A DNA stretch of 44,747 nucleotides from an uncultured Bacteroidota bacterium (GTDB taxonomy: Bacteria; Bacteroidota; Bacteroidia; AKYH767-A; OLB10), in assembly GCA_903847585.1 (NCBI GenBank), contig CAINEC010000189.1, positions 1-44,747 on the forward strand. The letters are read 5' to 3'. Below, piece by piece: positions 10,392 to 42,413 of this stretch. Within the stretch, counting starts at the first letter, position 1; each line of letters opens with the position of its first letter. The position numbers and the translations under genes were made by a program. The notes under the pieces were generated by a model. That model was not told the origin of the DNA, did not search any database, and saw nothing but the letters and a program-made list of their open reading frames with translations.

Positions 10392-12806
10392 CTATTTCAC
10401 TTTGATGATGCGCGTAGAGAGTGTGATATTCTCATTTTTCACTTCTAAGAAATAAACACCTTCGGGAAGATTATTTGTTTCTAGTTGATTATCGCGGCTA
10501 TTAAAATGCTCTACTGATTTTGTCTGAACAATTTGTCCAAGTGGATTAATTAAATTGATTACAACTTGCTTTCCGTTAAATGTTGGACAATTTACCGTGA
10601 TGGTATTTTTAAATGGATTAGGAGCAGCTGTTAGCAAACTACTATTCGACACATATCCGATACCGGTAGTATTGATGGTTACACAACCGTTAACGATAGT
10701 ACAATTTGCTTCTTCATAATCTGCATTTACGGCAGCATAGAAATTATCGATACATACCAACGTTGATGTTGTAGACTGATAATAAATTCTAAACAGTGGA
10801 ACAGCGATGTTCTGCTTAGTTAATGAAACTTCATCGAATGCCAGTGCCACTACTCTACCATTAGCTGGAACAAAGGCAATGTAAGGGTTAAAGAGCGAAC
10901 TAATATTTTTAATTGAATCGATGATTAATCCGGAGATATGAAAATCTACAGCAAGCAATCGTCCATCAGGATTAGCAATAGCTACATCAATAAATTTATC
11001 TTGTGTATTTACACTATCGATGCTGATATAAACAGTTTGCAAAACATTCTTTAAATTTTTCGGGAAATCACAATGTGAATGCGAAATACTTGTTCCATTG
11101 GGATGGGTATGCGTTCCTGCAGAATCGCGAATACAACCATTCAATTTAGCTGCATCGGTTACAGTTAACGTATTGTCACCATTTAAATCGTTGCAAGGAG
11201 CTACACTAGCAAGATTAACAATATCGATACAGTAGTTGACTAAATCAATTGAATCACGATCAGCATCTATGTCCCAATCGCCCGCCAAACGCGAGCCATT
11301 ACAGTCACCAATACAATCCTTCTTTGCTAACCCGAATGTATCACCTAAACAATCGACAATAGGAACACAGAAGGGTGTATTATTAAGTGTTGCTACTACA
11401 CTTCCGGTTGCTCGTGATAAATTAAAGCACATATACGCAGCGTTATTCGAATAATCTGTTTCAACATGCCCTAGTTTATCAGGCGACTCATCCCAATTTA
11501 CTTTAACCACTAACGTGTATTTTCCATCGGGCACATCGGTAATATCTATCCACTGACATTGCAATCCAGAGCTATACTCATCGGCACAACCAGCAGAGAT
11601 ACCCATATCACTACAACCATATTTTGCGGTTCCAGTAAAGCACATTAAATCAAGCACGCAAAATCCATTTTTAAATCCTACCTGCATTTCATTCTGCAAC
11701 GAATCGTATAATTCATATTTCGCATAACCTGCATAATGCCAATGTCCGTGGCAGTTATCAAAAACAAATTGCGAGTTTCCAGTTTGAGGCGGACCGATAT
11801 AATAATCCTGATCACCATCGTTGGAAATACGTGTTGTAAAATTAATAATATCACGTTGACCATATCCTGAAGTACATCCTTCGCCAATCAAACAAACATC
11901 GTTACCATTGATAGAAGAAACATAAAGCGAATTACGTAATACATTTTGATCAACAACTAAATCAGGACCATGATTACAATTTGGATCACCAGGATAAACA
12001 CATGTATTATTATCGATGATTGCAAGCGGATTAAAATTACATGCTGTTGAATCCATACAGCCAACTACAGGTCCGCCATAAGTAATTTGCCAGGTGATAG
12101 TACTATCGATGCAAGAAGAGTCGCCACCTACACGAATGTAATACGTTTGACCAGCCTGCAAACCTGCAGGCAAATACGACTGAATTCCACAGGCATCATC
12201 GTTGTAATAAATCGTTCCGTATTGAAGCGAATCCCAAATCAAACCATTACAATAATCATACACCCACAAACGTGTGTTGCAAGTATTATCAGGAAAACAT
12301 GCGCTGATGTTAAACATACCTGTTGAGTCAGGAATGAATTCGTACCAGGTAGATTGACCAACGGAATTATAGATTGTATCTTGGTAAGCGACGAATGCAT
12401 CGTTGCAATATGAGCCTGGAGGGCAATTTACATACGATGTTGAGGAAAAAGTGAATTGTCCTCCACTATCGGCAACAACACCATTAACTGATAAGGTATA
12501 ATGACCAATACCATAACTACAGCAAATTCCATCACCGTAAGTATCTTGAATGATAAACTTTATACATGTTCCTGTAGGAACACAAATCGAATCAGCATAA
12601 AATGATGAAACCCCCATTGCTGGCTGACTTGAAAGCAAAATAGCTCCAGTATTAGTGTAAAGATTCCAGCTGGTTTCTTGCGGGTAAGCATCCGTTAAAA
12701 GTTCGACTTTTATAACATCATATCCTGCAGGACATTGTGCTTTTAAAGCAGTTGAGAATGTGGAAATCAATAAGATTAAAATGATTGCGCGTAAATATGT
12801 ATTCAT
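10392..12806 (-). CDS. Secreted lysyl-oxidase-like copper amine oxidase with dockerin-like module and T9SS type A signal
   Basis: 804 residues from the ATG at 12806; a TTG nine bases upstream is rejected. Signal peptide about 1-23. An N-terminal beta-rich region (24-250) contains DTYGDGICC. A GCMDSTACNFNP ... DNNTCVYP cysteine motif lies at 249-272. The lysyl oxidase domain spans about 281-465: copper ligands H353, H355 and H357 in NCHGHWHYAGYAKYELYD, the likely LTQ cofactor pair K379 (VGFKNGFC) and Y411 (CADEYSSG), and QCQWIDITDVPDGKY, which closely matches animal LOX. A dockerin-like Ca-binding pair (DIDADRDSIDLVNY, DLNGDNTLTVTD) lies at about 500-560, a cohesin-like beta domain at about 588-705, and the T9SS type A sorting domain at the end. 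It would oxidise peptidyl or small amines to aldehydes outside the cell. The substrate is unknown. Confidence 0.85.
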   Translation of the reverse strand: MNTYLRAIILILLISTFSTALKAQCPAGYDVIKVELLTDAYPQETSWNLYTNTGAILLSSQPAMGVSSFYADSICVPTGTCIKFIIQDTYGDGICCSYGIGHYTLSVNGVVADSGGQFTFSSTSYVNCPPGSYCNDAFVAYQDTIYNSVGQSTWYEFIPDSTGMFNISACFPDNTCNTRLWVYDYCNGLIWDSLQYGTIYYNDDACGIQSYLPAGLQAGQTYYIRVGGDSSCIDSTITWQITYGGPVVGCMDSTACNFNPLAIIDNNTCVYPGDPNCNHGPDLVVDQNVLRNSLYVSSINGNDVCLIGEGCTSGYGQRDIINFTTRISNDGDQDYYIGPPQTGNSQFVFDNCHGHWHYAGYAKYELYDSLQNEMQVGFKNGFCVLDLMCFTGTAKYGCSDMGISAGCADEYSSGLQCQWIDITDVPDGKYTLVVKVNWDESPDKLGHVETDYSNNAAYMCFNLSRATGSVVATLNNTPFCVPIVDCLGDTFGLAKKDCIGDCNGSRLAGDWDIDADRDSIDLVNYCIDIVNLASVAPCNDLNGDNTLTVTDAAKLNGCIRDSAGTHTHPNGTSISHSHCDFPKNLKNVLQTVYISIDSVNTQDKFIDVAIANPDGRLLAVDFHISGLIIDSIKNISSLFNPYIAFVPANGRVVALAFDEVSLTKQNIAVPLFRIYYQSTTSTLVCIDNFYAAVNADYEEANCTIVNGCVTINTTGIGYVSNSSLLTAAPNPFKNTITVNCPTFNGKQVVINLINPLGQIVQTKSVEHFNSRDNQLETNNLPEGVYFLEVKNENITLSTRIIKVK

Positions 12807-38086: not shown

Positions 38087-39793
38087 TTATTTTGTAAAAG
38101 TAGTTTCATTTAATTTGCTGTGACGATAGCTATAAGAAAAATAAATGACCAATCCGATAACTAACCAAATTGTAAAGCCGATCCAGTTTTTGATATGTAT
38201 TTGTGCCATCAAATAAAGACAAGTCAACATTCCTAAAACAGGTATCAATGAAAGATTTTTTAGGATTGATGCGATAGCCATTACTAAAAATACCAGAAAG
38301 AAAATAAACATTGGAATTGCGTCTGTATTTACTAATGGGTTAACATTTTCATTAAACCAACCTGCTTGATATTTGAAAAGATAAGCAGTAAGAACAATAA
38401 ATAATGTAGGAACAATTAATTTTCCGTTGATATATGGCACTTTAAATTTACGAGGCAAATCTTTGTTATTTTGAAGCATCAGAACACCACCACAAACTAG
38501 AATAAATGCGAAGAGCGTTCCGATAGAACATAAATCAACTACCGTATTCAAATCGATAAATAAAATAGGAACACCAACTAATACACCCGTAATAATTGTA
38601 GAAAATCCTGGAGTACCAAATTTAGGATGAATAGATGCAAAACGTTTTGGTAATAAACCATCGCGACTCATGCTCATCCATATACGCGGCTGACCCATTT
38701 GAAATACAAGAAGCACGCTTGCCATTGCTACAACTGCACTGATTGCAATGATTCCGCTAATCCAATTTAATCCTGCTTCACTGAAAGCAAATGCGAGCGG
38801 ATCATCAACAGCTAAATTTTTATAGTTTACCATTCCTGTTAATACCAATGCAATGAGGACGTACAACACCGTACAGATTATAATCGAATACATCATTCCT
38901 CGAGGAAGATCTCGTTGCGGATCATGGCATTCTTCTGCAGTTGTTGAAATTGCATCAAATCCAATGTAGGCAAAGAAAACAGCAGAAACACCAGCTAAAA
39001 TTCCCGCTACACCCTCGGGCATAAACGGCGACCAATTAGCAGTATTGACATAAAAAAATCCGCAGCCAATTACCAGAGCAACAACCGCCAACTTAATTAC
39101 GACCATTATATTTGATGCGTTACGCGTTTCTTTAATACCACGATAAACCAGCCAGGTGATTAGAACATTGATTACTAAAGCAGGAATATCTAAAATAAAC
39201 TTAATGCCTGCTATAACAGGTGCGCCTATCCATGCAAGATATCCTTCGCTTTGAAATAACGATGCATCAGCAGGATTTGCAATAGCTGCTTCATAAGCGC
39301 GTTGAGCAGAGAAATAATCGATACCCGACCATTCAGGAAGATGAATGCCATTTTGCAATCCTAGAAATGGAAGATGAATATGATCGAGTAATGAAGCAAA
39401 ATAACCAGACCATGAAATTGCTACCACAATATTCCCAATAGCATATTCCATAATGAGAGCCCATCCAATTATCCAGGCAAACAATTCTCCGAAGGCCACA
39501 TAAGAATACGTATAAGCAGATCCACTCACGGGAACCATACTAGCAAACTCGGCATAGCAGAAAGCTGCAAAGCCACAAGCTATTGCAGTAAACACAAATA
39601 GGAAAATCACTCCTGGTCCACCAGCTGCCGAAGCTTGTCCGATAGTACTAAAAATTCCAGCACCGATGATAGCAGCTATTCCGAAAGCTGTTAAATCACG
39701 AACACGCAAATGCTTCTTAAGTGAAGATCCATTTTCATTCGCTTCAACAGTTTTTAAAATCTGATGAATATTTTTCTTTCTGAATAAACTCAT
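38087..39793 (-). CDS. APC-family amino acid permease (cationic amino acid transporter type)
   Basis: 568 residues. LTAFGIAAIIGAGIFSTIGQ is the APC substrate-binding GAGIF loop in helix 1, and AYTYSYVAFGELFAWIIGWAL is the family's helix 3 region. VFFAYIGFDAISTTAEECHDPQRDLP in helix 6 is the usual cationic amino acid transporter/YfnA signature. About 13-14 membrane segments; cytoplasmic N-terminus. It should import amino acids by proton symport or exchange; specificity unknown. Its ATG overlaps the TGA of the upstream membrane gene. Confidence 0.92.
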   Translation of the reverse strand: MSLFRKKNIHQILKTVEANENGSSLKKHLRVRDLTAFGIAAIIGAGIFSTIGQASAAGGPGVIFLFVFTAIACGFAAFCYAEFASMVPVSGSAYTYSYVAFGELFAWIIGWALIMEYAIGNIVVAISWSGYFASLLDHIHLPFLGLQNGIHLPEWSGIDYFSAQRAYEAAIANPADASLFQSEGYLAWIGAPVIAGIKFILDIPALVINVLITWLVYRGIKETRNASNIMVVIKLAVVALVIGCGFFYVNTANWSPFMPEGVAGILAGVSAVFFAYIGFDAISTTAEECHDPQRDLPRGMMYSIIICTVLYVLIALVLTGMVNYKNLAVDDPLAFAFSEAGLNWISGIIAISAVVAMASVLLVFQMGQPRIWMSMSRDGLLPKRFASIHPKFGTPGFSTIITGVLVGVPILFIDLNTVVDLCSIGTLFAFILVCGGVLMLQNNKDLPRKFKVPYINGKLIVPTLFIVLTAYLFKYQAGWFNENVNPLVNTDAIPMFIFFLVFLVMAIASILKNLSLIPVLGMLTCLYLMAQIHIKNWIGFTIWLVIGLVIYFSYSYRHSKLNETTFTK

Positions 39794-41103
39794 AAATCAT
39801 TTTTTTCTTTTGGTTGAGATGAATATTTCTGATTAAGCAACTTAATTAACGTTGAACCAGAAGAAAGTATTAAAATGAGCATTGCAATCATTCGGTAGCG
39901 AACAATATTTCCTAAAACAGGATTTGTGAAACCTACTAATGCAAGCAACATAACTGCAATGAATAATGATAAAACACAAAACGATGAAGTAAAATAACTT
40001 TTGCCTTTATCTAAAACAATGTTCAATATAAAAAAGAAAATGATAATCCACGATTCAACTGAAAAAGGAAAGAACCACCATTCTTTTAATTCCGATAAAG
40101 TGGGATGAAAAAATGCATACCATGAAGCTTCCGGAAAATGTTTTAAGAAACTACTCACATTAGGTGCAAAAGAAATTGGTTGCACTAAGCTGCCTGCATT
40201 CATAAAAACAGCAAAACGATAAGTATTTAATTGCTTACCAAACATCAATGCTGGCAAATCGAACGAAGGATAATAGCTTCCTAAGAATAAAACAATCGAG
40301 GCTGTTATTGCATAAAACAAAACAATGAATATAATTTGCTTAAGCGGTTTCTTAAATCGGAAAAGATAAATACCTAAAATACCTGGGAGCATTATTAGGA
40401 GTAAGTAAATTTTTACAAAGCAAAATAATGCGACAATAGAAACGAAGTAAATGATATACCTCACTCGCATTTGCTCCGTAGACAAATAGGTAATATACAT
40501 CAGCAAGGCAAATACGAATAAGATTAATGGTTCTTTCATTAATCCTGAGCTCCAAATAAAATGAGACGGAATTGTAAATACTAATAAAGCAATTATCCAA
40601 CTCCATTTATTATTTGGAACAAGTTCATCAAGAAAAATACGATAAAGCAATATCAATCCGAAGTAAGCCAGAAATGCCATAAACACTACATGCACTTCAT
40701 AATATCCGAAAGAAAGAAAACGAAACAACGTATTTAACTTAACTAATGTTTTTGCGTCGTTGTAATACTCATCGAAACCACTATCCACCCACATATGCAA
40801 TGAAGCAACATTGCGTGCCGTATCAGGGCTTTCTAAATGATAACCGAGCATGATTTTAAAAAACTGCTTTGGCTCGTTGAATAATACAGAGAATAAATGT
40901 CCTGAATCACTAAAGTAACCGTAAGTATCACCTGCTCCGTAATACTTCAAATAAAAAATCCCTAGTCCAACTCCTACAATACACTTTGCCAAAAAATAAA
41001 CTGCTGGAATTTCCCAATGCATATTTTTTGGCTTTAGGAAATCGAAACGATAAATGCAATAAGCAATTATCAACGCATAAAATAAGGCGAGCAATATTCC
41101 CAT
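39790..41103 (-). CDS. Polytopic membrane protein of unknown function, paralog A
   Basis: 437 residues with roughly ten hydrophobic helices. The signature TIPSHFIWSSGLMKEPLILF (about 185) is shared with the neighbour at 41103-42413 (MPSTLIWTSGLIKEAFLMF), as are a YYGAGDTYGYFSD loop near the N-terminus and a helix-bounded LVGFTNPVLGNIVRYRM end. The two are about the same length and clearly related, so they arose by tandem duplication. Acidic early loops and many helices suggest a GT-C glycosyltransferase or Wzy/EpsG-like envelope enzyme; this is inference and no catalytic residue is assigned. Overlaps both neighbours. Confidence 0.7.
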   Translation of the reverse strand: MGILLALFYALIIAYCIYRFDFLKPKNMHWEIPAVYFLAKCIVGVGLGIFYLKYYGAGDTYGYFSDSGHLFSVLFNEPKQFFKIMLGYHLESPDTARNVASLHMWVDSGFDEYYNDAKTLVKLNTLFRFLSFGYYEVHVVFMAFLAYFGLILLYRIFLDELVPNNKWSWIIALLVFTIPSHFIWSSGLMKEPLILFVFALLMYITYLSTEQMRVRYIIYFVSIVALFCFVKIYLLLIMLPGILGIYLFRFKKPLKQIIFIVLFYAITASIVLFLGSYYPSFDLPALMFGKQLNTYRFAVFMNAGSLVQPISFAPNVSSFLKHFPEASWYAFFHPTLSELKEWWFFPFSVESWIIIFFFILNIVLDKGKSYFTSSFCVLSLFIAVMLLALVGFTNPVLGNIVRYRMIAMLILILSSGSTLIKLLNQKYSSQPKEKNDL

Positions 41104-42413
41104 TAGTTCTTTCTTATTAAGTTATTGAAATATTTACCAAAACTTAATTCTGGTAAATAATTAATCATGACAAATAGAAAAAACGGTAATGCAGGAACTT
41201 TATATCGAACAATAGCACCTAATATCGGAGTTACTAATCCTGTGAGGATAAAAATCGTCATACAGAAAAAGAAAGCTAAAAGAATCCAATAAGTGCCAAT
41301 TTGAAATTTCGATTTGAAAACAAAATACAAACTAAGCAAAAGGGCAATAGTGATAATTAAATTTTCTATTGCTGCTAGAAGCATCAGCGGATTTTTCACT
41401 TCAAGTATCGTTGGTCGAAAAACAACATTCTTGATAGCATTAGGCGAATTTATAATTAACGAAGTATATGAATTTGTTAAAACTGGAATATCTATTAAAC
41501 TATTCGCATGATCACGATTGGCAACATGAAAAAATTCAGCTTGCTTACTAGTTAATAATTGAGGTATTCTCTTACCAAATAAAAATTCAGAAGCAAAAAG
41601 CACAATGCATCCGTAAATAAAATAAACGGCAATCAACTTCAATAATTGTGAGTGTGAATTATGTTTTAAAAGCATCCAACCCGCAACACATGGAATCAAC
41701 AGAAAAATGATATAGGGTTTTATCAAAAACAAACAGAATAAAAATACGAACAACTGAATATAATTGCGGCTAATACGTTCTTTCTTTTCGACTAGGTGGT
41801 ATAATGTATTTAGCAACATCCCGAGTGAAAACATCAAGAAGGCTTCTTTGATTAATCCGCTTGTCCAGATCAAAGTAGATGGCATTAAAAACACTGCGAT
41901 CAATAAAAGATTTTCTTTACCACTTACAAACGAAGTAAAAAAACGATAAATAGCAGTTAATCCACATAAAGAAAGAAAACACATGATAACAGCATGAGGA
42001 TAATACGTTCCCAATGAAAACAATTTTAGTACTGCGCTAAATCGAATCATAGTTCGTGTATCATTAAAAATCATGTCGGTATTATACCAATTACGCATTG
42101 CATCGTAATAGTGCTGCAAATCTGGACTAGCTGAATCGTAACCAGTAAACATCCTTAAAAAATCATAGGGATGTGTGAAGAGTGACTGGTACATAATATT
42201 CGCATCATCAAAATATCGGAAGATATCAGCTGTAGCCCGATCAGTATAGTAACGTGTATAGATCAAGTAAAGAAAAAATCCTGCAACCAACTTAATCAGG
42301 AACATCAATTTGAAGGTCCCGACTTTTAAAACAGGATGCTTAAAAACAGGCAACCTATCTATCAAGAAGATGCAAAATGCAATGACTGCGAACGACAATA
42401 CAAATTCGAGCAT
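41103..42413 (-). CDS. Polytopic membrane protein of unknown function, paralog B
   Basis: 436 residues, about ten membrane segments, first gene of the operon. It shares with paralog A the LIWTSGLIKEAFLMFSLGML block, the early RYYTDRATADIFRYFDDANI loop (compare YYGAGDTYGYFSD) and the LVTPILGAIVRYKVPALPF C-terminal block. The loop DSASPDLQHYYDAMRNWYNT resembles the ESPDTARNVASLHMWVDSG region of A. Its stop overlaps the A start as TAATG. An exact -7 box lies 4 bases before the ATG. A glycan-related function is possible but unproven. Confidence 0.7.
   Translation of the reverse strand: MLEFVLSFAVIAFCIFLIDRLPVFKHPVLKVGTFKLMFLIKLVAGFFLYLIYTRYYTDRATADIFRYFDDANIMYQSLFTHPYDFLRMFTGYDSASPDLQHYYDAMRNWYNTDMIFNDTRTMIRFSAVLKLFSLGTYYPHAVIMCFLSLCGLTAIYRFFTSFVSGKENLLLIAVFLMPSTLIWTSGLIKEAFLMFSLGMLLNTLYHLVEKKERISRNYIQLFVFLFCLFLIKPYIIFLLIPCVAGWMLLKHNSHSQLLKLIAVYFIYGCIVLFASEFLFGKRIPQLLTSKQAEFFHVANRDHANSLIDIPVLTNSYTSLIINSPNAIKNVVFRPTILEVKNPLMLLAAIENLIITIALLLSLYFVFKSKFQIGTYWILLAFFFCMTIFILTGLVTPILGAIVRYKVPALPFFLFVMINYLPELSFGKYFNNLIRKN

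Follow-up and report, generated by a model that had tools for sequence, protein, structure and literature searches.

A lysyl oxidase domain joined to dockerin-like, cohesin-fold and type IX secretion modules in a conserved protein family of uncultured Bacteroidia

Animal lysyl oxidase (LOX) cross-links collagen. What might a catalytic domain of the same kind do in a secreted protein of a freshwater-type Bacteroidota bacterium, where it is found beside dockerin-like and cohesin-like modules? The question is raised by a gene in the window, by which we mean the whole stretch of 44,747 nucleotides that was analysed. The open reading frame occupies positions 10392-12806 of the minus strand and runs uninterrupted from ATG to stop over 804 amino acids, with an alternative TTG 9 bases upstream. 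Its product consists, in order, of a Sec signal, two N-terminal beta-sandwich modules, a Cys-rich repeat, the LOX domain, a dockerin-like pair, a cohesin fold and a type A tail of the type IX secretion system (T9SS); the AlphaFold2 model of the whole protein has a mean pLDDT of 75.9. The features are as follows.

12735..12806, minus strand: Sec-type signal peptide, residues 1-24 (hydrophobic helix 2-20 before AQC)
12426..12734, minus strand: N-terminal beta module with a DxYGDGICC motif, residues 25-127 (strands in the model)
12072..12425, minus strand: PPC / GBD_T9SS-associated-like beta-sandwich, residues 128-245 (fold match)
11982..12062, minus strand: Cys-rich repeat GCMDSTACNFNPLA..NNTC, residues 249-275 (sequence)
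11412..11969, minus strand: lysyl oxidase catalytic domain, residues 280-465 (PF01186 and LOXL2 fold match)
11736..11750, minus strand: copper-ligand triad H353-x-H355-x-H357, equivalent to LOXL2 H626/H628/H630 (alignment, invariant in 22 of 22)
11670..11672, minus strand: K379, the LTQ precursor lysine, LOXL2 K653 (alignment, invariant in 22 of 22)
11574..11576, minus strand: Y411, the LTQ precursor tyrosine, LOXL2 Y689 (alignment, invariant in 22 of 22)
11127..11285, minus strand: type I dockerin-like pair, residues 508-560 (profile matches, calcium loops, predicted helices)
11061..11126, minus strand: His-rich linker HTHPNG..SHSHC, residues 561-582 (sequence; disordered in the models)
10665..11051, minus strand: cohesin-fold module, residues 586-714 (predicted fold)
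10395..10643, minus strand: T9SS type A C-terminal sorting domain, residues 722-804 (PF18962, TIGR04183, fold match)

The protein shares with human LOXL2 (5ze3) and animal LOX the catalytic fold, the His triad, the Lys and Tyr precursors of LTQ and the cysteine pattern. The Pfam family Lysyl_oxidase (PF01186) matches residues 314-459 with 101.5 bits and an E-value of 6.4e-29 (cut-off 20.4). The sole solved sequence relative of the catalytic domain is LOXL2 5ze3 (phmmer E 2.4e-19), and the match reaches E 1.3e-32 when the family profile is used instead of the single sequence. An overlay on animal LOX, proposed as a check in the initial annotation, was borne out: in a structure search the LOX region of the AlphaFold2 model matched 5ze3_B with Z 19.1, rmsd 2.8, 192 aligned residues and 30% identity. 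The copper triad H353/H355/H357, K379 and Y411 are where that annotation placed them, correspond one-to-one with LOXL2 and are invariant in all 22 homologues.

Pairwise alignment with LOXL2 also pairs eight cysteines (C305/573, C311/579, C352/625, C383/657, C389/663, C398/673, C407/685 and C417/695); on the LOXL2 side they account for four of its five mapped disulfides (PMC9180022). The invariant C460 and C480 lie beyond the aligned stretch and probably match LOXL2 C732-C746. Nine of the ten LOX-family cysteines are invariant among the 22 homologues, the exception being C389, missing in 7 of them. The bacterial protein differs from LOXL2 in having no His at the positions of H623, H637 and H652, which are taken by D350, a lysine and F378; the first of these histidines is missing from bacterial LOX generally (Grau-Bove et al. 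2015, PMC4448552). In LOXL2 the residues H626, H628 and H630 are essential, while H623Q and H652Q cut LTQ formation to less than 50% (PMC9694262), so the yield of cofactor could be low in a protein where D350 and F378 replace H623 and H652. Model confidence is low in the loop that separates K379 from Y411 (pLDDT about 50). A large separation of the His triad and the K379-Y411 pair had been offered beforehand as grounds for rejecting the assignment, but this reasoning is unsound: the equivalent Lys and Tyr are 16.6 Å apart in the crystal of the LOXL2 precursor (PMC9694262), and a long predicted K379-Y411 distance is therefore no refutation.

The initial annotation had regarded the combination of modules as unusual. 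The modules themselves stand, by sequence, fold or both, but they do not make up an isolated fusion; they belong instead to a conserved protein family. The architecture is common to 22 homologues, with the T9SS tail in 21 of them. Of 42 genomes from the order, 19 by our count encode the full-length LOX-dockerin-cohesin type, and it occurs in other Bacteroidia as well. Independently assembled genomes also contain the gene, so that chance matching and misassembly are both excluded as explanations. It is single-copy and conserved across one genus. When 395 genomes were drawn evenly from across the phylum, just 4 gave any PF01186 match and, besides the window's own genome, one of these was of the LOX-dockerin-cohesin type. 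Contigs labelled Flavobacteriales, Saprospiraceae and Cytophagaceae carry additional homologues that are 37-42% identical over almost the whole length. In the LOX tree the genus and close genera fall together; one genus of the same family (L012) is placed with the sister family, and transfer may therefore have contributed to the distribution.

Purifying selection on the LOX domain is strong, with dN/dS of 0.023-0.036 against the three nearest homologues, compared with 0.081-0.141 for the T9SS tail. It is the most conserved part of the protein (mean column identity 65%, versus 50% in the dockerin-cohesin part). Against two homologues (L025 and L028) the dS of the cohesin part (10665-11051) is 0.35-0.41, far below the value of about 1.3 in the LOX part (11412-11969), which hints at recombination within the gene.

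A divergent second LOX-like subfamily occurs in the same order (L014, L015, L016, L019, L020, L041, L042, L043 and L045; also L022 and L023), mostly as frames of 700-1500 amino acids in which the Pfam match is confined to profile positions 128-198. The subfamily, which keeps the H-x-H-x-H motif, the Lys and the Tyr, appears to be a further family of possible LTQ enzymes. Three further members (L017, L018 and L044) have lost the His triad and kept the Lys and Tyr positions; they are probably non-copper relatives.

The protein carries signals for export at both ends. The signal peptide is helical in the model and is also present in the full-length homologues. At the C-terminus both Por_Secre_tail PF18962 (residues 729-801, E 8.8e-12) and NCBIfam TIGR04183, the T9SS type A model (E 4.4e-9), match above their cut-offs, in agreement with the T9SS signal noted at the outset, and residues 722-804 match the folds of the mirolase CTD (8qb1) and the NucA CTD (8glk). 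The same genome encodes a full-length SprA, a T9SS core gene (2639 bits), and so the tail is likely to be used.

The modules ahead of the LOX domain are less readily named. Residues 25-127 have no Pfam match and no confident PDB sequence match; the tandem domains of ColG (5iku) cover residues 28-243 with Z 10.9 but an rmsd of 14.3, a weak match for this module. Residues 128-245 match the collagen-binding domain 3B of ColG (2o8o) with Z 11.1, rmsd 2.7 and 98 aligned residues. PF23759 is weakly matched here in 12 of the 22 family members, and PF04151 (PPC) gives only weak matches, none above the cut-off. The nearest solved sequence relatives of this module are the HA-70 hemagglutinin domains of botulinum (E about 0.001). 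A collagen-binding role, as the ColG match might suggest, was dropped because the fold is common and the nearest sequence relatives are the HA-70 domains. The Cys-rich repeat at 249-275 has pLDDT below 50 in the AlphaFold2 model and is mostly conserved among the homologues.

A domain search for LOX, dockerin and cohesin, also proposed at the outset, recovered only the first by Pfam: PF01186 is clear, but Dockerin_1 (PF00404) has no match in the 804-residue sequence by itself, and cohesin PF00963 is absent from profile scans of the protein and its relatives. The dockerin-like pair is nevertheless supported at the level of the family. Of the 22 homologues, 11 match PF00404 (E up to 1). Built from the same 22, a profile covering residues 476-714 finds cellulosomal dockerins as its best PDB matches (1daq at E 0.006, 2mte and 2vn6; range 0.006-0.009). 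The pair has two F-hand repeats, both complete and conserved, with putative calcium loops D510/D512/D514/D521 and D540/N542/D544/D551, helices 519-530 and 549-560 in the model, and the extra invariant cysteines C538 and C558. The cohesin-like domain was upheld by its predicted fold: residues 586-714, which have no sequence match, align with cohesin 6kgf at a VIA-align Z of 11.9 in the full-length model (pLDDT about 90), and a separate model of the domain gives Z 12.2, rmsd 2.7 and 122 aligned residues, with cohesin-containing entries making up all of the top 27 matches. Between dockerin and cohesin lies the His-rich linker 561-582, which could bind metal, perhaps copper; 15 of the 22 homologues retain one of its His residues.

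Modelled separately, the dockerin-cohesin segment forms one confident unit (pTM 0.81), a hint that the two may be in fixed contact in cis. A search of the same genome with the dockerin-cohesin profile matched only the LOX-dockerin-cohesin gene and found no dedicated partner. Other T9SS proteins with Dockerin_1 or Cohesin matches exist, and nothing ties them to this protein. Among them, in the same genome, a T9SS-tailed protein of 1134 amino acids with a dockerin match (L049:2773-6177, plus strand) adjoins a T9SS-tailed protein of 245 amino acids with a cohesin match (L049:6255-6992, plus strand); these neighbours are a possible trans pair. A Pfam scan of the 804-residue protein showed neither a glycoside hydrolase nor a cellulose-binding module, and the protein is thus not classed as a cellulosome component. 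Cohesin folds are also known in secreted enzymes that are not cellulosome scaffoldins (Clostridium perfringens 2jh2, 2w1n and 2vo8; Archaeoglobus 2xdh), as here; the bacterial LOX protein differs from these non-cellulosomal cohesins in having cohesin and dockerin adjoining in one polypeptide, beside an amine oxidase domain.

The surroundings of the gene were also considered. A profile search of the genome for a collagen-like substrate returned no collagen-repeat (PF01391) protein. In the three neighbourhoods compared, no gene partner is shared between genera. Urocanase and UvrD genes accompany the LOX gene only within the genus, urocanase being missing from two more distant loci, and both were rejected as operon partners since their conservation ends at genus level. 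Elsewhere in the window, at 39790-42413 of the minus strand, two adjoining open reading frames of 437 and 436 amino acids, without a Pfam match at E 1e-5, are possibly a duplicated pair.

What, then, might the protein do? Known LOX chemistry and the active LOX of the haloarchaeon Haloterrigena turkmenica (HTU-LOX; PMC6452851) make it likely that it is an amine oxidase. HTU-LOX, which is promiscuous toward substrates, has measured Cu-dependent, BAPN-sensitive activity that extends to lysine polypeptides (PMC6452851). We propose a surface-displayed Cu/lysine-tyrosylquinone amine oxidase that probably acts on lysines in surface or matrix proteins and whose presumed role is cross-linking, the last point being drawn from the attached modules; we regard this full reading as about evenly balanced. 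The protein would cross the outer membrane via the T9SS and be displayed or released, would take up Cu(II) outside the cytoplasm and would build LTQ from K379 and Y411. Primary amines, with the lysine side chains of nearby surface or matrix proteins as the likeliest targets, would then be oxidised to aldehydes, NH3 and H2O2 being released; these aldehydes would condense with further amines and reinforce the surface or matrix by covalent bonds. The N-terminal beta-sandwiches may hold the substrate, and the cohesin-dockerin pair may either close on itself in cis or join molecules head to tail and so make the enzyme part of an assembly. Against this reading, neither the search for collagen repeats in the genome nor the comparison of the three loci yielded a substrate candidate, two LOXL2 histidines that promote LTQ formation are replaced, HTU-LOX is promiscuous, and substrates of the human type have been shown for no bacterial LOX in the literature searched. 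That a bacterial matrix or surface layer is matured by allysine cross-links of the LOX type, with the oxidase embedded through its own head-to-tail cohesin-dockerin contacts, is a bolder proposal and an unlikely one; it would amount to a bacterial equivalent of matrix cross-linking in animals.

The same enzyme could serve nutrition, deaminating environmental primary amines or lysine-rich polymers to yield ammonium without cross-linking anything. HTU-LOX oxidises many small amines and a nitrogen-supply role has been proposed for it (PMC6452851), and the genus-level neighbour urocanase is a catabolic gene, but its absence from the two more distant loci examined, and the presence of docking modules and cell-surface sorting that exceed the needs of a scavenger, leave this explanation improbable. 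An active LOX might also be directed at competitors, its extracellular H2O2 and aldehydes harming or modifying other microbes, or its oxidase activity inactivating antimicrobials that bear amines. Aminoglycosides and polymyxin are acted on by HTU-LOX (PMC6452851), and the chemistry always yields H2O2; set against this are a window in which no immunity or defence genes were recognised beside the gene, and a single-copy, strongly constrained gene conserved across a genus, and we give the proposal only a slim chance.

A quite different possibility is that catalysis has been given up and that the LOX fold is an adhesive or copper-binding module of a beta-sandwich surface protein. Relatives of the same clade (L017, L018 and L044) have lost the His triad, so non-catalytic use of the fold may occur. 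The LOX-dockerin-cohesin family, however, keeps the triad, the Lys and the Tyr in all 22 members and is best conserved in precisely this domain, and non-catalytic use is improbable here. The cross-linking amine oxidase is the reading that we prefer.

Bacterial LOX, those of Bacteroidetes included, were reported by Grau-Bove et al. 2015 (PMC4448552), who describe prokaryotic LOX of the same enzyme family with the triad and LTQ residues and likewise without the first His, mostly as the LOX domain alone, with three multi-domain exceptions. Compared with most of these, the 804-residue protein carries several further modules that are conserved together; the archaeal HTU-LOX, with 308 residues (PMC6452851), has none of them, and LOXL2 has SRCR domains where the bacterial protein has PPC-like modules, dockerin, cohesin and a T9SS tail instead. 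No paper on such a family, or on a lysyl oxidase relevantly joined to T9SS, was found in the open-licence literature searched. The architecture appears to be undescribed, though the three multi-domain LOX of PMC4448552 may overlap with this family.

Bacterial LOX have so far been mostly single-domain sequences without a known role. Here an order of uncultured Bacteroidia combines a complete LOX active site with a constant set of modules for binding, docking and secretion, so that a defined extracellular function becomes open to test. Protein cross-linking is also a practical use of secreted quinone amine oxidases. The protein could reveal whether animal-type chemistry serves bacteria to stiffen a surface or matrix of their own; if surface proteins are indeed cross-linked in this way, hardening of a matrix by LOX would not be special to animals.
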